Positions 5,603 to 17,248 of a stretch of DNA of 64,000 nucleotides are shown here, piece after piece. This stretch comes from Microbulbifer taiwanensis (lineage in GTDB: Bacteria > Pseudomonadota > Gammaproteobacteria > Pseudomonadales > Cellvibrionaceae), in contig NZ_JACZFR010000006.1 of assembly GCF_014904815.1 (NCBI RefSeq), positions 124,001 to 188,000 on the forward strand. Direction: 5' to 3'. Below the pieces are notes generated by a model. That model saw only the letters and a list, made by a program, of their open reading frames with translations, ran no database searches and was not told where the DNA came from. The position numbers and the translations under genes are program-made. Each line of letters begins with the position of its first letter. Positions within the stretch are counted from its first letter, which is position 1.

Positions 5603-8600
5603 TCAGGCGGCGGCCAGTTTTGGTGGCTCAACGCCGTCGGCCGGCGCCTCCTCCGGGTCCGGCTGCGCGCGCCCCTCGGTCGCGGTCAGCGAGTAGAAGA
5701 CCGGCACCACGAACAGGGGTAACAGGGTGCCCAGCACCATACCGGTGACCAGCACAGTGCCGATGCTGTTGCGCGCCTCGGCGCCGGGGCCGGACACAAG
5801 CACCAGCGGCAGGTGGCCGAACACCGTGGCGGCGGAGGTCATCAGTACCGGGCGCAGGCGCGTCAGGGAGGCCTCGCGCAGCGCCGCCATCTTGGCCAGG
5901 CCGCGGGCCTGCAGTGTGTTGGCGAACTCGACGATCAGTATGCCGTTCTTGGCGATCAGCCCCACCAGGGTGATCAGCCCCACCTGTGAATAGATATTCA
6001 GCGTGGTGAAGTCCAGGAAGGTGAACAGCAGCGCGCCGGAGATGGCCAGCGGCACAGAGCCCAGTAGCACTATCAGCGGGTCGCGGAAGCTCTGGAACTG
6101 GGCCGACAGCACCAGGTAGATCAGCAGCACCGCGAAGCCCAGTGTGGCGGACAGGGTGCCGCCCTCCTGGCGTATCTGGCGCGATTCGCCGGCGTGGTCG
6201 ATCACCGCCAGGGCGCCGCCGGCAGCGAGGGCGGCCTCCTCCAGCACGCGCAGTCCCTCCTCCTTGGTGACGCCGGGATTGACGCCGCCGAAGATGCGCA
6301 CCGCATTGCGCTGCTGGAAGCGGTGCAGGGCGCGCGGCGCCGTCTCCGTCTCGATGCGGGTGAAGGCGGACACGGGCACCAGTTCACCGCCGGGACCGCG
6401 GATCTTCAGGTCCAGCAGCGGTGCCAGTGTGGCCCTGTCCTTGTCCCCCACCTGGGGAATCACCTTGTAGCTGCGGTCGTAGTAGTTGAAGCGATTCACA
6501 TAGCCGCCGCCCAGCAGTGTGCCCAGCTCCTGTGCCACGTCGGCCAGGTCCAGGCCCAGGTCGGCCACCCGCTCCCGGTCGAGCACCACCCGTGCCTCGG
6601 GCAGGTCGATTTTCAGGTCGCTGTCCACGTACAGGAACTTGCCGCTGCCCCAGCCGGCATTCATCACCTGCTGGGCCAGCGCCTGCATCTCCTCCAGGGG
6701 CGCGTCGCTGAGCAGCAGCATCTCCACGTCGTACATGCCCGGCGTCGGCAGGGGCGCGTCCATGCTGGGAAATACCCGCAGTCCCGGTATCTGGGATACG
6801 GCGCCGTAGACTTCGCCAAACATCTCCGCGGTGGAGCGATCGCGCTCTTTCCAGTCTTTCGTCACCAGGCCGCCGAAGCCGCCCCAGGCCGAGGTCAGCG
6901 ACCACATAAAGTCGGTTTCCGGCAGCGCGGCGATGGCCTCGGCCACTTCCATCGAGTGTCGGTTGCTGGCGGCCAGGGTCGAATCGGGCGCCGCCTCGAA
7001 GAAGAGGCTGATATGGCTCTGGTCCTCCACCGGCGCCAGCTCCTTCTTCGAGAAGTGGTGCAGCGGCCAGGCGGCGGCAGTGACCATCAGCGCTGCAACC
7101 ACTACCGCCCAGCGCATGGACAGGGCGCCGTCGAGCAGGCGCGCGTAGCCCCGGCTGACGGCATCGAAGATGCGGTTGACGCGCACCGTCAGCCAGGCCT
7201 CCTTGCCGTGGGGGTGCACGAAGCGCGAGCTCATTACCGGCGACAGGGTCAGGGCGACGAAGCCGGATACCACTACCGCGGCGGCCAGGGTGATGGCGAA
7301 CTCCAGGAAGAGGGCACCGGTCAGCCCGCCCTGGAAGGCGATGGGCGTGTACACGGTGGCCAGGGTGATGGTCATGGCGATCACCGGTCCGCGCAGTTCG
7401 CGCGCGCCGGCCAGTGCCGCTGCCACCCGCGACTTGCCCTCGCGCACATGCCGCTCGACGTTTTCCACCACGACGATGGCGTCGTCCACCACCAGGCCCA
7501 CCGACAGCACTATGGCCAGCAGGCTCAACAGGTTGAGGCTGAATCCGGCCATATACATCACCAGCCCGGCGCCGACCAGCGACACCGGCATGGCGATCAG
7601 TGGCACCAGTGCGGTGCGGATGGAGCCCATAAACAGGTAGACCACCAGGCCGACGATCAGGATGGTCTCCAGCAGCGTCTTGTTGATCTCCTCCAGGGCG
7701 TCGCGCATAAACATGGTGCCGTCCCAAACGAGTCGCATCTCCACGTCCTGGGGCAGTGTCGGGCGGATGCGCTCCATCTCGTCCTTCAGACGCTGGGCCA
7801 CTTCCAGTTCGTTGGAACCGACCAATGGCCAGACACCCAGGTAGACGTTTTCCTGGGTGTTGTACTTGGCCACCATCTCCGCCTCTTCCGCGCCCAGCTC
7901 AACGCGGGCTACGTCGTGCAGGCGCACCGTGGCGCCCTGGCGCTCAGAGACTATCAGGTTGGAGAACTCCTCCACCGAGCGCAGGTCGGTGTTGGCCAGC
8001 AGGTTGACCTGCACCCACTCGCCCTTGGTGCGGCCCACGGCGGCCAGGTAGTTGTTGCGCTGCAGGGCCGCGTGCACGTCGCCGGGAGAGAGATTCAGCG
8101 CCGCCAGGCGCTCCGGGTCTATCCACACCCGCATGGCCAGTTGCTGCGCGCCCTCGAAGGTCACCCGCTGTACGCCCTCCAGCGTCGCCAGCTGCGGCTG
8201 CAGTGTGCGCGACAGCCAGTCGGTCAGCGCCGGTACATCGCGCTCGGCGGAGGTGAAGCCCAGGTAGAAGGTGGCGTAGGGGCGGTCGGCGCGCTGCACC
8301 TCCACCACCGGCGGCTCTGCCTCCGCCGGCAGTTCGGAGCGCACCTGCTGCAGGCGCGCGGTGACCTCGGCCAGGGCGGTGGTGCTGCTGTGGTTCAGTT
8401 TCAGGTGCACGGTGACGGTGCTGACACCGGCGCGGCTGGTGGAATCGATATAGTCGACGCCGCTGATGGCGGCGACGGCGCGCTCAATCGGTGTGGTCAG
8501 GGAGGCGCGCACTGTTTCTGCGCCGGCACCGGGATAGACGGTGGTCACCACCACCGAGGAGCTTTCGAGAGTCGGGTACTGCTGCACCGGCAGCGACGAC

Positions 8601-10824: not shown

Positions 10825-12477
10825 TTAACTCTTCTTCAGGTGCAGCACCCGCGCGCCGGCCAGTGGCAGCGTCAGCTTGTCGCCGTCGCGCTCGCCGGCG
10901 AAGAGCGGCGGGGTAATGTCTTCCGCATTGGCGAATTCCGCCGGAATGGCAAAATGCTCTTCGCTCCTGCCCAGGTTCAGGGCCACTAGATAACTTTCTT
11001 TTTCTGCGCGGCGGTAGAACACCAGCAGGTCGTTTTGCGTATCCACCACCTGCTGCTCCGCGGTGGCCAGGGCCGGCGACTGGTTCCTGTGCCAGTCGAT
11101 CAAACTGCGGAACCGGTTCAGCATCGAGTGGGCATTTTCTTCCTGCACGCTGACGGCCTTGTGGTGGTGTTCCTCGGGTACCGGCAGCCACGGCTTCACC
11201 TTGGAGAAGCCGGCGTTGATCTCGCCGTGATTGAACCAGGGCATGGGGGTGCGGCAGCCGTCGCGGCCCTTGAATTCCGGCCATAAATTGATGCCGTAGG
11301 GGTCCACCAGGTCCTCGAAGGCGATGTCCGCCTCTTCCAGGCCCAGTTCCTCGCCCTGGTACAGGCAGACACTGCCGCGCAGGGTCAGTTGCATCAGCAG
11401 AAACAGCGGTGCGCGGGCCAGGGCCTGTTCACTGTCGAAGCCCTTGTTCCAGCGGGTGATGGAGCGGGGCACGTCGTGGTTACTGATAGACCAACAGGGC
11501 CAGCCCTGTTCGATCACCGCGCGGTTCTTTTCCAGGGTATTGCGCAGGAAGTCGGCGCTGCTCTCTTCGGTCAGCAGGTCGAAGGAGTAGGCCATGTTCA
11601 ACCGCTCGCCGGTGGTGTACTCGGCCATGATCTTGTGGGTGTTGTCGTCGCCCACTTCACCCACGGTGATGGTGCCCGGGTACTGGTTCATCAGTTGGCG
11701 CACGCGCTGCAGGAAAACCAGGTTTTCCGGCTGGGATTTGTCGTGGATATGCCACTGGTACTGGTAGGTATTGACCGGCGCTTGCCCCTTATCGTCCAGC
11801 TCCAGCGGGCGCGGCGGGTTGTCGGCCAGTGACTGGTTGTGGAAGGCGTGATTGATGGCGTCCAGGCGGAAGCCGTCGACACCGCGGTCGAGCCAGAATT
11901 TCAGGTCTGCTAGCAGCTGTTCCTGTACCTCTGGATTGTGCAGATTCAGGTCCGGCTGTTCCTTGAGGAAGTTGGTCAGGTAGTGCTGGCGGCGACGGGT
12001 GCACCAGCGCCAGGCGCTGCCGCCGAAGTTGGACATCCAGTTGTTGGGCGCGCTGCCGTCCGCCTTGGGGTCGGCCCACACGTACCAGTCGGCCTTGGGA
12101 TTGTCGCGGCTGGAGCGGCTCTCTTCGAACCAGGGGTGCTGGTCGGAGGAGTGGCTGAGAATCTGGTCGATGATGACCCGCAAGCCGCGTTGGTGCGCGG
12201 CTTCGATCAGGCGGTCGAAGTCCTCGAGGTTGCCGAAGATGGGATCCACATCGCGGTAGTCGGATACGTCGTAACCGAAGTCCGCCATCGGCGATTTGAA
12301 GAAGGGCGATATCCAGATGGCGTCCACGCCGAGGGACTGCACATAGTCGAGCTTGCGGGTGATGCCCGGCAAGTCGCCGATGCCGTCGCCGTTGGCATCG
12401 CAGAAGCTGCGCGGGTAGATCTGGTAGATAACGCCGTTGCGCCACCACTCCGTGGTGTTGTCGCTGTTGCCGCTCAT
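10825..12477 (-). CDS. GH13 alpha-glucosidase (oligo-1,6-/alpha-1,4-glucosidase type)
   Basis: A 550-residue cytoplasmic enzyme with no signal peptide. The conserved GH13 regions are present in order: DAIWISPFFKSPMADFGYDV near residue 55, VIIDQILSHSSDQHPWF, GFRLDAINH with the nucleophile Asp, TVGEVGDDN with the acid/base Glu, and SNHDVPRS with the transition-state-stabilising Asp. The start MSGNSDNTTEWWRNGVIYQIYPRSF matches the family. It hydrolyses alpha-glucosides such as maltose or isomaltose oligomers to glucose. A MalT-like activator is encoded 2 kb away, which fits an alpha-glucan utilisation module, although no transporter is seen here. Confidence 0.93.
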   Translation of the reverse strand: MSGNSDNTTEWWRNGVIYQIYPRSFCDANGDGIGDLPGITRKLDYVQSLGVDAIWISPFFKSPMADFGYDVSDYRDVDPIFGNLEDFDRLIEAAHQRGLRVIIDQILSHSSDQHPWFEESRSSRDNPKADWYVWADPKADGSAPNNWMSNFGGSAWRWCTRRRQHYLTNFLKEQPDLNLHNPEVQEQLLADLKFWLDRGVDGFRLDAINHAFHNQSLADNPPRPLELDDKGQAPVNTYQYQWHIHDKSQPENLVFLQRVRQLMNQYPGTITVGEVGDDNTHKIMAEYTTGERLNMAYSFDLLTEESSADFLRNTLEKNRAVIEQGWPCWSISNHDVPRSITRWNKGFDSEQALARAPLFLLMQLTLRGSVCLYQGEELGLEEADIAFEDLVDPYGINLWPEFKGRDGCRTPMPWFNHGEINAGFSKVKPWLPVPEEHHHKAVSVQEENAHSMLNRFRSLIDWHRNQSPALATAEQQVVDTQNDLLVFYRRAEKESYLVALNLGRSEEHFAIPAEFANAEDITPPLFAGERDGDKLTLPLAGARVLHLKKS

Positions 12478-13021
12478 AGGTTACTGCCTATTTCATTATT
12501 CGAGATTGCGGGCGGGCCCACTCCTGTAAGGATAGGGTGAGTATGGCGTCGCTGGTGGGGGGCTGCCTCCTCCCTGTGGAGGGGGGAGGGGGGAGGAATG
12601 GCAGGTTTGACGAATCCCCTTGCGGAGCCGAAGGCGTTACGAATGCCTGGAGCGGCCGTTGGCCGCAATCAAAACATGAAAGTGTCTGGAAGCATCCGGT
12701 CCTCCTCAGGGGCCTACAGGCGACTTGATCGCGGTGACCAGCTGGTCAGGTCTTTGATTCGCTCCAGACTCTCGGAGTTCCGGTTTCGCGGGCTTATTGA
12801 TGAAATCGACTGCCAAGCGCCGAATACCGAAGCGGAACCGTGTGTTCATTGGCGATCGCGTTTCAGTTTCTGCTCTTCTAGTGAATGCACCGGTTCCTTG
12901 CAAGCCTCCCTTGCAGCATTGTATAACCGCCGTTTGAAAAATAGTCAGCGGGCGGCGTTTCTTTGTCCGTGCGTTGATAACGCGACAGGGAATTAAAAGC
13001 GCTTAATCGCAAGGAGGCGAT
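12478..13021. other. 544-base intergenic region upstream of the LRAT/HDAC unit
   Basis: This lies between the divergent GH13 gene and the 13022 unit. Around 12616-12675 there is a stretch resembling one at 27394-27450 (shared words GCCGAAGGCG, GGAG and CGGCCGTTGGC). From about 12720 to 12960 one plus-strand frame stays open, but the peptide looks like translated non-coding DNA and has no ribosome site. A promoter is predicted at 12898. No gene is called here. Confidence 0.5.
12898..12927 (+). promoter_or_regulatory. Predicted sigma70 promoter for the LRAT/HDAC unit
   Basis: TTGCAA at 12898-12903 and TATAAC at 12922-12927 are separated by 18 bases. The site lies about 95 bases before a strong ribosome site (AAGGAGG at 13010) that serves the gene at 13022. 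It is predicted from sequence only. Confidence 0.45.
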
Positions 13022-13492
13022 ATGTTGAAAGTGCATGTCTGGCTGCCTGAAGGCAATATGGTGGGGCACGCATCCCTTTCATATGGTGGCAACTACGTCA
13101 GTTTTTGGCCGGAAGACGGCGCAGGCAAGAAAGACCTGAAAATCAAGCGTAGTCATCCCGGACACTTCATGAAGGCGCTGGATGAAGATATTGCGTCCGA
13201 AGGCAATAGGCATCCGGTTACCATAACGATCCAACGTATAGATTCCGACAAGTTGGAGAGTTTTATTCTTGATCTGCAAAGGAAGAACCCGCGATATCAA
13301 CTGGCGAGGTACAACTGTTCGCATGTCGTTGCGGAATGCCTGACAGTGGCGAGCGGGAAAGAACCAAGTTTTCGGCCGTCTGCTCATGAATATGGAAGAC
13401 TTGGGGGAGTTTTGGGGCGCGGTATCTGGACGCCGAGTGAAGTGTTACGTTATGCCAAAGAGCTTTCTGTGGCTGGCCGGGAGATCGCGTGA
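13022..13492 (+). CDS. Permuted papain-fold (LRAT/NlpC-P60-like) protein
   Basis: A 156-residue protein without signal or TM segment. The N-terminal strand carries GHASLSYGGNYVSFWP with His16, and the later motif YNCSHVVAECL carries Cys99. This His-before-Cys order and the N-C-x-H block match permuted papain-fold families, in which LRAT and HRASLS enzymes use NCEHFV. Those families include acyltransferases, amidases and thiol hydrolases; the activity here is not known. An AAGGAGG ribosome site precedes ATG. The last bases overlap the HDAC-like gene (GTGA at 13489-13492), giving tight coupling. Base composition is visibly lower in GC than its neighbours, suggesting acquisition. A toxin or effector papain-like domain is the main alternative. 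Confidence 0.6.
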   Translation: MLKVHVWLPEGNMVGHASLSYGGNYVSFWPEDGAGKKDLKIKRSHPGHFMKALDEDIASEGNRHPVTITIQRIDSDKLESFILDLQRKNPRYQLARYNCSHVVAECLTVASGKEPSFRPSAHEYGRLGGVLGRGIWTPSEVLRYAKELSVAGREIA

Positions 13493-14448
13493 ACGTCTTA
13501 TATAGTGATGAATATAATATCGATCTCGGATTGTTGAACTACCTGCACCCCTTTGATGGAGTTAAGTTCAAGAAAATCCATAGAGCGTTGGAAGGTAATG
13601 AGAAATTAGACTTCCTGAGCCCTGGCGCTCCCGTGGATATGGAAATTGTCGACGATTTCCTTTCCAGCATGATGAGAAGGAAGGTCAGGGACTCTGTTTT
13701 TGTATTCAGGGCTCTTGAAGTCCCGAAGATTCCTTTTGTCAGCTTCAAATTTTTGGATAAAAAAATACTCACCCCAATGCGCTGGGGCGTCGCCGGAACC
13801 ATGCTGGGAGCGGAAAGGGCACTGAAATGCGGCGACATATACTGGAACCTCTCCGGCGGTTACCACCACGCCATGCCGCAAAATATGGAGGGTTTCTGTA
13901 TCTACAACGATATCGGCATCTGCCGCCAGCAGCTTGTAAAGAGTGGCCTCCTGTCTCCAGAAGACAAAATCCTTGTCATCGATACCGATGCCCACCATGG
14001 AAACGGCAACGCCTACACCTTTATGGATAACGACCGGGTAACCCTGCTGGATGTGTACAACGCCGGTATCTACCCCACGTCCGGCTACACCCGCGACCGC
14101 GTCGATATCCCCGTTCCACTACCACCCGGCACCGAGGGGGTGGCCTACCTACAGCAATACGGCGAGGCCCTAGAGAAGCTGGCGGGCGACTACCGGTTGG
14201 CATTCGTCGTCGCCGGAACCGATGTCCTGACCAGCGACAAGCTGGGCGGTCTCTGCCTGACCACCGAAGATGTGGTTCAGCGTGAAAAGCTGACCGTTCA
14301 GGCGCTTAATAAGCGTTCAATTCCTTCTGTCATCCTTGGCGGAGGTGGCTATTCCCAAGATAGCGCCAACAGTGTGATAGCTGCAATCTCCGCCTGCGCC
14401 GAACTGCTCCCGTCCCCTCCCTCTGCCAGAGAAGCTCTGAGCCACTAG
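13489..14448 (+). CDS. Histone-deacetylase-family hydrolase, class IV (HDAC11)-like
   Basis: A 319-residue Zn-dependent deacylase. WNLSGGYHHAMP supplies the tandem catalytic His126/His127, VIDTDAHHGNG supplies zinc ligands Asp167 and His169, VVAGTDVLTSDKLGGL supplies the third ligand Asp245, and GGGGYSQ supplies the transition-state Tyr288. The GTD-L-x-x-D-x-L-GGL block and the later Q-R-E-K-L spacing are most like HDAC11, which in animals removes long acyl groups from lysine. The start is GTG at 13489, inside the stop of the preceding gene. It may reverse or hydrolyse an acyl group linked to its partner's function; the substrate is inferred only. Confidence 0.85.
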   Translation: MNVLYSDEYNIDLGLLNYLHPFDGVKFKKIHRALEGNEKLDFLSPGAPVDMEIVDDFLSSMMRRKVRDSVFVFRALEVPKIPFVSFKFLDKKILTPMRWGVAGTMLGAERALKCGDIYWNLSGGYHHAMPQNMEGFCIYNDIGICRQQLVKSGLLSPEDKILVIDTDAHHGNGNAYTFMDNDRVTLLDVYNAGIYPTSGYTRDRVDIPVPLPPGTEGVAYLQQYGEALEKLAGDYRLAFVVAGTDVLTSDKLGGLCLTTEDVVQREKLTVQALNKRSIPSVILGGGGYSQDSANSVIAAISACAELLPSPPSAREALSH

Positions 14449-14471
14449 CTGTGCAAATCCACCAGGTCCGG

Positions 14472-14494
14472 CCGGTGCGCGCGGCGCACCCTAC
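14472..14494. repeat. Family A repeat, single arm
   Basis: A 23-base match to the right arm of the hairpin at 10737, placed between the HDAC-like stop and the MalT-like stop. No second arm is seen nearby. Confidence 0.75.
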
Positions 14495-14506
14495 CGGAGT
14501 ACCGAT

Positions 14507-17248
14507 CTACGGCTGATCTTGCACCGAGCGCAGCATCTGCTCCGCCAGTGCAATCGCCTCCTGACGGTCCTTGACGTCCAGCTTCTGGTAGAGGCTGCGG
14601 ATATGGGTCTTGATGGTGCTGGGGGCCACCTTGAAGTGGCGTGCGATGCGCTCGTTGGAGAGGCCCGAGTGGATGGCATTCAGCACCTGCCATTCCCGCG
14701 GGGTCAGCGGCGAGTGGCGCAGGAAATCCGGTACCGCATCGCTCTCCAGGATTTCCTTGATGATGGTCTCGTCCAGCTCAATGCGGATACCGCCGTCCAG
14801 TTCCGGCTGCTGCTGGGCCAGCTTGATCAACTCGCGCGCCCGGTCGGCCTCTGCCTCGCCCAGGGCGCTCTTCCCTTCTCCCGGCTCGAGGACGGCTTTC
14901 AATATTACGATCAGGGGTTTGCCGAGCTGCAGGAAGGAGGCACTGAAATCCCGCTCCACGGCGATGCCGAGCGCTTCGGTCATGGCGTTGACAGCGCCGT
15001 CGCGCCGCTCGCGCAGCCACAGCAGGTGCGCCTCCAGTACCAGGTTGCGCAGGCAGTCGGTCACCAGGCCGCAGTCGCGCGCCACCTGCTGCAGGCGGCT
15101 CAGCAGGCGATTGGCGTCGGACCAGCGGTGCAGCTCGATCAGCGCGCGCACATGGTTGCGGCCGTGGCACTGCTCGAAGTGATTGCTCGGCCTGTCCGCC
15201 ACCGGCGCCGCCTGTTCCAGCCAGGCGTATATGGCCTGCTGATTGTCCAGGGCGCGCCAGGCGCGCATGCGCGCGGCGTCGGCATTGGCCACCCAGTCGC
15301 GGTGGTAGCGCTCACCGCTCAGCAGCCGGTCTATACGCGCCAGCCATTCCTGGGATTCCTCTTTCTCACCCCTGGCCTGGGCCACTTTCAGCAGCAGCGT
15401 GTACTCGGGCAGCAGCCAGCGCTCGCCCACCTTGCGATTGATCTGCATGCCGCGGCGGGCGGAAGCGGCGGCGGCGTCCAGGTCGCCCTTTTCCCACTCC
15501 AGCTGGCCGCGCAGGCGGCAGATGAATTCGGAGATGGGCAGGCCGGACAGGTGGTGCTCCTCGATCAGGCGCTGGGCGCGCGCCTGCAGCGCCGAGGCCT
15601 TCTTCAGCAGGCCCTGGGCGATGGCAATTTCGGTCTGCTGGCAGATGGCCCAGGCGGCGCTGGGGTAGTCCTGTTCGGCCATCGCCAGGGCCTCGACCTC
15701 CTGCATATGGGCGCTGGCCGGCGCCAGCTCGCCGAGGCAGAAGCCGGTCTCACCGACCACCAGCAGTGCGGCGATGCGCTCGCCGGGCTGGTCGTCGCGC
15801 AGCAGGCCCAGGGCCTCCTCGGCGTATTCCTTGGCCAGCAGTGTCTGGCCGCGGGCCACAGCGGCCTGGGCGCGGGCGGCGGCGAAGGCGCCCTCGTATT
15901 CGCGCCAGCGCTGCGGATCCTCGCGCTGCAGCCAGCTCTCGGCGGCGGCCAGTAGCCTGTCGCAGCGGTCGTGTTCGAAATTGTCGCGGGCCATCTTGGC
16001 CGCGATCAGGGTAAAGCGGGCGTTGCGCTGCAGTTCGTCGGGGCCCAGCCAGTCGAGGCAGTCGTTCAGTATGCGCGCCTGGCCCTCGCGCAGCAGCTGT
16101 TCGCCCTGTTCCGCCAGCAGCTGCCGCATGCGCTCGCGGTCCTCCGCCGCCAGCGCGTGGCGCAGTGCCTCCAGCGGCTGGCCCAGCTGCTGCCAGGTGT
16201 CGCAGGCGGCGCGGTGCAGTTGCAGCAGGCGCGAGTGGTCGGTGAGCTGGCGCTGCAGGAAGCGGGCAAACACCGGGTGATAGCGGAACCACTGGCGGCT
16301 GGAGTCCTGTGCCTGCAGGAAGAGGCCGCGCCGCGCCGCCAGTTCCAGCAGCTGCTGGCCGCCGTCGAGTCCGCTGAGCGTCTCCGCCAGCAGGGCGTTG
16401 ACGCGGGTCAGTATCGAGGTGCAGGCGAGCAGTTCGCGCAGTTGCGGTTCCAGCCGCTCCAGCACCTCCTCGGCCAGATAGTCGAGGATATGGCTGTGGC
16501 CGCGCTCCAGTTCCGCCAGGTAGCGGTCCACCTCGTCGCGGTCGCGCACGGAGAGTGCGAACAGCTGCACCGCCGGGGGCCAGCCCTCGCTGAGCAGGTG
16601 CAGCTGCCCGGCGCGGTCGCTGTCCAGGTTGAAGGGCAGTCTCTGCTGCAGCAGCTGGGCGATTTCTTCCGTGTTGAGTGCCAGTTCCTCGCTGCCCAGC
16701 TCCAGCAGGCGTCCGGCCACGCGCAGGGAGGCCAGGCCCAGGGGCGGCTGGCTGCGGCTGGTCAGCACCACACCGATGCCGGCGGGGGCGTGGCGCAGCA
16801 GGAAGCGGGTGGCGTCGTGCACCGCTTCGTTGTCGATCTGGTGATAGTCGTCCAGCACTATGCGCAGTTCGCTGGGCAGGCCGCGCAGTTCCGCCAGCAG
16901 CTGGCTGATCACCAGGGTCGGGTCCGGGCGCTGCTGGGCGCCGAGCAGCTTGTGCATCTCTTTATGGGTTTCGGGCACGCCGTTGCCGGTGGCACGGTGC
17001 ACACTCTCCACCAGGTAGCGGCAGAACTGGCCCGGTTCGTTGTCGCTGGCGTCCAGGGAGTACCAGGCCACCGGGGTGTCCTGGGCGACGGCCCAGGAGG
17101 AGACCAGGGTGGTCTTGCCATAGCCGGCTGGCGCCGTGACCAGCAACAGCTGGTCGCTGTGGCTGTCGTTCAGCAGTGACAACAGGCGCGGGCGCGCCAG
17201 TGTGTGCTCGGGGCAGTCCGGCAGGCTGTATTTGGAAGTCAGTAGCAT
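14507..17248 (-). CDS. malT: MalT-like LuxR-family ATP-dependent activator (LAL/STAND)
   Basis: A 913-residue protein close in length to MalT (901). Near the N terminus SKYSLPDCPEHTLARPRLLSLL precedes a Walker A motif (VTAPAGYGKTTLVSSW) and Walker B (RIVLDDYHQI). The middle is a long TPR-like helical array for sensing. The C terminus is a LuxR HTH (LTPREWQVLNAIHSGLSNER ... STIKTHIRSLYQKLDV). ATG 17248 is chosen over upstream frame extensions because MLLTSKYSLP aligns with the family start. MalT activates maltodextrin genes when bound to maltotriose and ATP, and the GH13 enzyme at 10825 is a likely target. Orthology to MalT is probable, not proven. Confidence 0.85.
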   Translation of the reverse strand: MLLTSKYSLPDCPEHTLARPRLLSLLNDSHSDQLLLVTAPAGYGKTTLVSSWAVAQDTPVAWYSLDASDNEPGQFCRYLVESVHRATGNGVPETHKEMHKLLGAQQRPDPTLVISQLLAELRGLPSELRIVLDDYHQIDNEAVHDATRFLLRHAPAGIGVVLTSRSQPPLGLASLRVAGRLLELGSEELALNTEEIAQLLQQRLPFNLDSDRAGQLHLLSEGWPPAVQLFALSVRDRDEVDRYLAELERGHSHILDYLAEEVLERLEPQLRELLACTSILTRVNALLAETLSGLDGGQQLLELAARRGLFLQAQDSSRQWFRYHPVFARFLQRQLTDHSRLLQLHRAACDTWQQLGQPLEALRHALAAEDRERMRQLLAEQGEQLLREGQARILNDCLDWLGPDELQRNARFTLIAAKMARDNFEHDRCDRLLAAAESWLQREDPQRWREYEGAFAAARAQAAVARGQTLLAKEYAEEALGLLRDDQPGERIAALLVVGETGFCLGELAPASAHMQEVEALAMAEQDYPSAAWAICQQTEIAIAQGLLKKASALQARAQRLIEEHHLSGLPISEFICRLRGQLEWEKGDLDAAAASARRGMQINRKVGERWLLPEYTLLLKVAQARGEKEESQEWLARIDRLLSGERYHRDWVANADAARMRAWRALDNQQAIYAWLEQAAPVADRPSNHFEQCHGRNHVRALIELHRWSDANRLLSRLQQVARDCGLVTDCLRNLVLEAHLLWLRERRDGAVNAMTEALGIAVERDFSASFLQLGKPLIVILKAVLEPGEGKSALGEAEADRARELIKLAQQQPELDGGIRIELDETIIKEILESDAVPDFLRHSPLTPREWQVLNAIHSGLSNERIARHFKVAPSTIKTHIRSLYQKLDVKDRQEAIALAEQMLRSVQDQP

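Follow-up and report, generated by a model that had tools for sequence, protein, structure and literature searches.

A 64,000-nucleotide stretch of the Microbulbifer taiwanensis genome (contig NZ_JACZFR010000006.1, positions 124,001 to 188,000; the whole of it is referred to here as the window) carries two overlapping genes, P1 and HDAC, that recur as a strictly linked pair in ten genomes. P1 is predicted from its modelled fold to be a lysine N-epsilon-fatty-acyltransferase, and the HDAC, judged by its sequence signatures, is predicted to be an HDAC11-type, clade B fatty-acyl-lysine deacylase. Because these predicted activities are opposite, the genes overlap and co-occur, and their setting is mobile and rich in defence genes, we propose that the two proteins are a toxin and its enzymatic antidote, acting either within the cell or after secretion. 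We regard the case for this as evenly balanced. The more specific suggestion, that the pair is a dedicated bacterial conflict system in which reversible lysine fatty acylation sets a RID-like toxin against an HDAC11-like defatty-acylase, spread through defence islands as a cassette of two genes, is tentative and falls somewhat short of being probable.

The anatomy of the locus, the predicted RID-like fold of P1, the conserved catalytic residues, the clade B signatures, the strict pairing and the unrelated neighbours were all computed here. In all ten genomes with the pair, the HDAC gene is the next gene, directly downstream of P1 on the same strand. The two open reading frames (ORFs) overlap by four bases in seven of the ten loci and are separated by 0 or 2 bases in two, while the remaining locus (L031) has a one-base gap with one choice of start and an 11-base overlap with another; translational coupling through the GTGA overlap is likely. 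Because it recurs in ten genomes the pair is more than a chance arrangement, and the ten orthologous pairs rule out chance ORFs. The carriers are three Microbulbifer, two Pseudoalteromonas, a Thalassolituus, and metagenome-assembled genomes (MAGs) named Oceanobacter, Limnobacter, Gammaproteobacteria and Alphaproteobacteria. The original prediction, made from the letters of the window alone, had suggested examining co-occurrence across genomes, and the linkage it described thus extends well beyond this genome.

The distribution is patchy. Four of 58 relatives have P1, among them the window's own genome and one in which only a relic is left; it is found in 5 of the 369 genomes of a class sample, two of them close (G000 and G134) and three distant, and its profile matches in 2 of 398 genomes of a phylum sample, the window's own and one with a distant fusion protein. 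The genomes sampled at class, phylum and genus level are a selection, and ORFs were called by length. A scan of genome contigs found nine pair loci, three of them in genomes already found, which together with the window gives the ten distinct genomes; it used two narrow peptide patterns, so that diverged pairs may be missed. Within the class sample, HDACs of the pair type (>580 bits) are confined to the two genomes that have a close P1; the HDAC matches ranking next, at 249 and 198 bits, come from two genomes in which P1 was not detected. No HDAC was found at the three distant RID-like loci L012 to L014. Distances between the P1 copies track those between the HDAC copies (r 0.78), with two discordant branches: L034 and L035 share 96% identity in P1 and 79% in HDAC, and L029 and L033 share 74% and 87%, respectively. 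These discordant identities perhaps reflect recombination within the cassette.

The 156-residue product of P1 had been described as an LRAT/NlpC-like permuted papain protein, and of this description the permuted papain-type fold stands, as predicted and compared with Foldseek, while the assignment to LRAT or NlpC gains no support: P1 matches no Pfam family at E<=1, and hence no LRAT or NlpC/P60 profile, and no LRAT structure is among the structural matches listed for it, an absence not thereby proven. The nearest solved structure is a MARTX-toxin RID domain (5xn7), the sole Foldseek row with a probability above 0.11 and top-ranked in the VIA ranking as well, where the type VI secretion system (T6SS) effector TseH comes second and PPPDE1 also matches. 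At the sequence level the resemblance to RID is not significant (E 1.1 and 0.45 in two sequence-only PDB searches, ∼25% identity). Scans of the pair against NCBIfam and PADLOC were uninformative, with no PADLOC family at E<=1 for P1 or HDAC. His16 and Cys99, singled out in the original prediction and here predicted to be catalytic, have not been lost in any of the ten orthologues, which share 69 invariant positions and 62–96% mutual identity in the pair genomes; the invariant acidic residues, candidates for a third catalytic acid, include Asp32, Asp38, Asp56 and Glu60. A WTP segment after the catalytic cysteine is common to P1 and 5xn7. The accessible text of PMC10924143 names C2835 as a RID residue and reports that RID acylates protein lysines; P1 is more aptly called a relative of RID than of LRAT, and a lysine acyltransferase is also the better fit to a partner predicted to be a lysine defatty-acylase.

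Several other identities for P1 were rejected. It is not a MARTX toxin domain, being a 156-residue ORF with its own start and ribosome-binding site, nor the broken-off tip of a larger toxin, since each of the ten loci has a separate start for it and most have a sequence resembling a ribosome-binding site. A type III secretion system (T3SS) effector in the window's genome was discarded on the absence of PF01313 from G000 and G016; 8 of the 10 carriers have this family, by which a T3SS and a flagellum cannot be distinguished there. A phage or plasmid origin was likewise set aside for P1, with no phage match, no relative in viral contigs and 65 plasmid records all below 60% identity, and a phage origin for the HDAC, with no relative in viral contigs; the viral-contig scans were limited by the patterns used.

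More distant RID-like proteins occur in a range of arrangements, some of them in settings of conflict. An RHS-type protein (L013, 2–1192) has a C-terminal domain that resembles RID, carries the motifs GHVS and NCS and looks like the tip of a polymorphic toxin. The RID-like domain of L036 (1222–2625) lies behind a predicted multi-helix membrane part, those of L012 (3–2604) are in two neighbouring ORFs, and L014 (1282–1950) encodes a standalone protein of 222 residues. RID-like hypothetical proteins of about 190 residues, with 25–33% identity, are encoded on E. coli plasmids (L006, 5980–6549; L119, 2980–3549), directly behind T6SS genes in the annotation.

The HDAC matches PF00850 with 139.3 bits against a cut-off of 27.9 and is the sole match to this family in the window's genome. 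The earlier assignment as an HDAC11-like deacylase with an intact active site is borne out: His126, His127, Asp167, His169, Asp245 and Tyr288 are invariant in all ten orthologues, which share 101 invariant positions and are 51–87% identical to one another. The loop-1 signature of clade B is HPFD in eight of the pair HDACs and HPFE in two, and the equivalents of Glu94, Pro113 (not Arg) and Phe/Tyr141 are each present in all ten. All four signatures are thus found in 10 of 10 pair HDACs, as against only 2 of the 19 unlinked bacterial HDACs compared, 12 of which are of the clade A type. In a tree the pair HDACs form a single clade (support 0.999), separate from the A-type group (0.967) and joined with weak support (0.633) to the Leptospira interrogans HDAC11. 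Clade B class IV enzymes are described as long-chain lysine deacylases in the accessible part of PMC13325672.

The anatomy of the locus is largely as first described. Both ORFs, their coordinates and sizes, the overlap and the ribosome-binding site are recovered (Table 1), and both genes are indeed AT-richer than their surroundings, the guanine-plus-cytosine content of P1 (0.514) and HDAC (0.533) being below that of the GH13 gene (0.620) and the MalT-like gene (0.679) and of the window as a whole (0.618). The placement between GH13 and MalT/LuxR-type regulator genes also holds, with these gene names given by eye without a profile search. A promoter of the pair's own, which had been proposed as well, gained no backing: a promoter and terminator scan of positions 12450–14560, which yielded nothing useful, returned no sites like the sigma-70 consensus, although a promoter may exist all the same.

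The flanking genes are probably irrelevant to the function of the pair. We examined 30 Microbulbifer GH13 loci (of 40 GH13 matches), and in 19 of them a MalT gene lies within 1.5 kb with no pair between, while three have the pair, one (G001) has a P1 relic, and seven have other content; outside Microbulbifer the neighbours of the pair differ, except for some common to L032, L034 and L035. A functional link to GH13 or MalT was rejected on the basis of these empty junctions and differing neighbours, and on the same basis the pair is best seen as a mobile two-gene cassette. No third gene common to all pair loci was seen.

Some contents of these sites and neighbourhoods deserve mention in their own right. 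The relic in G001 is a 34-residue piece of P1 (L052, 11124–11225) between the GH13 gene and a helicase-like gene, at the site of the window's pair; the helicase-like gene (L052, 7785–11051) encodes 1088 residues and has a 208-bit match to MkoC in PADLOC. Six of the seven junctions with other content hold a cassette of proteins of 388–396 and 301–304 residues, which is repeated in L089 and of which only the first protein was called in L091; the members scanned have no Pfam match, and the two proteins of L086 have no PADLOC match. A large protein lies ahead of the pair in L032 (1–1611) and L034 (2–3508), with a weak resemblance to TSP3 repeats that falls short of the Pfam cut-off; in L032 a piece like its C-terminus recurs behind the pair (6246–6497).

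Table 1. Positions of features of the P1–HDAC pair in the window, and gene content of related loci.
Feature	Position	Strand	Remarks
P1 gene	13022-13492	+	ATG start, 156 aa; putative toxin, a standalone RID-like protein that would be a lysine N-epsilon-fatty-acyltransferase
HDAC gene	13489-14448	+	GTG start, 319 aa; putative antidote, a class IV zinc deacylase of clade B type that would act on fatty-acyl-lysine
GTGA shared by the P1 stop and the HDAC start	13489..13492	+	four bases common to both ORFs
AAGGAGG, ribosome-binding site of P1	13011..13017	+	precedes P1
Codon of P1 His16 (in GHA), predicted to serve as catalytic base	13067..13069	+	invariant in 10/10; aligned to His of the 5xn7 GHA motif
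P1 Cys99 codon, NCS motif, predicted nucleophile	13316..13318	+	invariant in 10/10; aligned to an Ala position of the 5xn7 chain
HDAC HPFD motif, loop 1 (residues 20-23), clade B signature	13546..13557	+	signature comparison; accessible part of PMC13325672
HDAC Glu77, equivalent of HDAC11 Glu94, clade B signature	13717..13719	+	signature comparison; accessible part of PMC13325672
HDAC site	13774..13776	+	signature comparison; accessible part of PMC13325672
HDAC SGGYHH (122-127), gatekeeper Tyr125, catalytic His126/His127	13852..13869	+	motif as in accessible part of PMC11532494
HDAC GGGY (285-288), catalytic Tyr288	14341..14352	+	accessible part of PMC11532494
Neighbourhood of L111			Dsr1, N-terminal part only (PADLOC)
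Neighbourhood of L112			AbiEii, SoFic, type II methyltransferase (PADLOC); MvaI/BcnI nuclease (Pfam)
Neighbourhood of L113			type IV restriction, LmuB (PADLOC)
Neighbourhood of L116			ZorA, ZorB (PADLOC)
Neighbourhood of L118			type I M, S and R, PDC-S11 (PADLOC)
Neighbourhood of L110			WYL regulator only (PADLOC)
Unknown junction cassette (Microbulbifer)	L086 749-2824; L088 5340-7438; L089 653-6167; L090 592-2693; L091 643-1833; L092 5246-7351

There are also indications that the pair keeps company with defence genes. We scanned 67 of the 84 ORFs in nine pair regions, leaving out the 17 that belong to the pair, and at E<=1e-30 these neighbours matched 69 PADLOC families, 25 of them listed; known anti-phage defence genes are present in five of the nine regions. 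As a control we took 118 of 140 ORFs from 8 of 10 regions at hand-chosen positions in five carrier genomes, and these matched 15 PADLOC families, all named PD-T4-6, mad6 or IetA, which we read as unspecific hits to kinases or ATPases. The enrichment has a p value of 0.03 when counted as five of nine against none of eight, and of 0.64 if the control matches are counted as three regions. Among the ten genes near the window's own pair there is no recognisable conflict gene, the only match being a GlgB-type one to the GH13 protein.

In the scheme that we favour, the activities of P1 and HDAC, the toxicity, the target and the trigger are what we infer. P1 would be a small cytosolic RID-like lysine N-epsilon-fatty-acyltransferase, whose Cys99 would accept a long-chain acyl group from acyl-CoA or acyl-ACP, the presumed cellular donors, and pass it to lysines of target proteins, which may be misplaced or disabled as a result; the HDAC encoded by the overlapping gene would hydrolyse the same acyl-lysine bond and protect the producer. 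The two would work as DarT and DarG do, with fatty acylation replacing ADP-ribosylation. Either an acyl mark that is added and removed, or a toxin with its counter-enzyme, had been offered at the outset, and these were the right options to weigh. That the toxin and antidote are deployed inside the cell, as an anti-phage or addiction module, is possible, if doubtful. Within the same toxin-and-antidote proposal, P1 could alternatively be a cargo effector that the T6SS injects into neighbouring cells, with the HDAC as the cytoplasmic immunity enzyme that reverses the modification in sister cells, which we consider unlikely even though TssB is present in 9 of 10 carriers as compared with 70 of 369 class genomes (p 4e-6), and in six of the seven carriers outside Microbulbifer (p 3e-4 against the class). 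These are raw values, uncorrected for genome size or completeness; within Microbulbifer, where TssB occurs in 31 of 41, carriers (3 of 3) and non-carriers (28 of 38) give no signal (p 0.56), and one carrier MAG is without a TssB match. The structural match to TseH, the position of the RID-like plasmid genes after T6SS genes, the RHS protein with its RID-like tip, and the Imm11 gene that follows the pair in L034 are all consistent with secretion, but no VgrG, PAAR or Hcp was seen beside the pairs, although no search aimed at them was made.

In a regulatory, non-toxic role the two proteins would write and erase a fatty-acyl group on some protein of the cell itself, moving that protein to the membrane for example; this would fit the enzyme predictions and the coupling equally well. 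The strong conservation of both proteins and the window's locus, with its lack of recognisable conflict genes, speak in its favour, but so patchy a distribution, together with movement between genera, empty sites and defence-rich neighbourhoods, would be unusual for a housekeeping regulator, and the loci share no third gene; on balance we think this improbable. Still less probable is that P1 has the same fold with another activity, as a protease, amidase or lipid hydrolase, and that the HDAC acts on a different substrate, with a shared role in conflict as the only link. Deubiquitinases and lipid amidases are among the enzymes with a permuted papain fold according to the accessible text of PMC10318531, TseH and PPPDE1 are structural matches of P1 as well, and about 25% of the IcsB-like proteins tested were without acyltransferase activity, as given in the accessible part of PMC13059803. 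The only clear Foldseek match is nonetheless to a proven fatty-acyltransferase domain, the partner bears the signatures of a clade with proven lysine defatty-acylase activity, and a chance pairing of these two seems unlikely.

Lysine fatty acylation is known chiefly from animal cells and from effectors injected by pathogens, and to our knowledge few natural substrates have been assigned to bacterial HDAC11-type enzymes. If free-living marine bacteria carry such a writer and eraser side by side, both enzyme families would gain a native role in bacteria; if the toxin-and-antidote proposal is correct, it would supply a natural substrate for bacterial HDAC11 enzymes, suggest a common origin of such conflict modules and the RID and IcsB effectors found in pathogens, and add a new chemistry to the enzymatic toxin–antidote systems used in bacterial self-defence or warfare. 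The pair would also be a small two-gene system for direct tests of long-chain lysine acylation in bacteria. The superfamily of each protein and the logic of a toxin with a reversing enzyme are known already, and it is the pairing that appears to be new: we found no description of a RID-like protein paired with an HDAC in the titles and abstract starts of the open-licence PMC papers listed, and the accessible portions of PMC3482391 and PMC10286901 do not describe it.

Among known proteins, the RID domain of Vibrio MARTX toxins (5xn7) shares with P1 the predicted permuted papain core, the His and Cys positions and the WTP segment, but it lies inside a secreted giant toxin, whereas P1 is a standalone protein of free-living bacteria with a partner deacylase. 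P1 also resembles the IcsB-like lysine fatty-acyltransferases in its predicted permuted papain catalytic domain, a likeness drawn without direct sequence comparison; the accessible text of PMC13059803 includes environmental members, H10 and H11, from bacteria predicted to lack a T3SS, and mentions no paired deacylase for IcsB. The HDAC has the HPFD motif, the Glu94, Pro113 and Phe/Tyr141 equivalents and the complete zinc and catalytic set of HDAC11 and the bacterial class IV clade B enzymes (9gz5/9rjd), and differs in belonging to a distinct clade and being encoded directly behind P1. LRAT and HRASLS proteins have a permuted papain-type core and carry out acyl transfer, as predicted for P1, and differ in that P1 matches neither their profiles nor, among the structures listed, LRAT. 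In the arrangement of toxin and reversing enzyme there are two parallels. Tre1 and Tri1 are a secreted toxin and an ADP-ribosylhydrolase immunity protein that removes the modification, a chemistry other than that of the pair, for which secretion of P1 is hypothetical. DarTG combines a modifying toxin with an adjacent antitoxin enzyme, DarG, which according to the accessible part of PMC11481870 neutralises DarT both by reversing the modification and by binding, in a system that stops phage; DarTG acts by ADP-ribosylation of DNA, whereas the P1–HDAC pair, for which we claim no sequence relation to it, is predicted to act by fatty acylation of protein.
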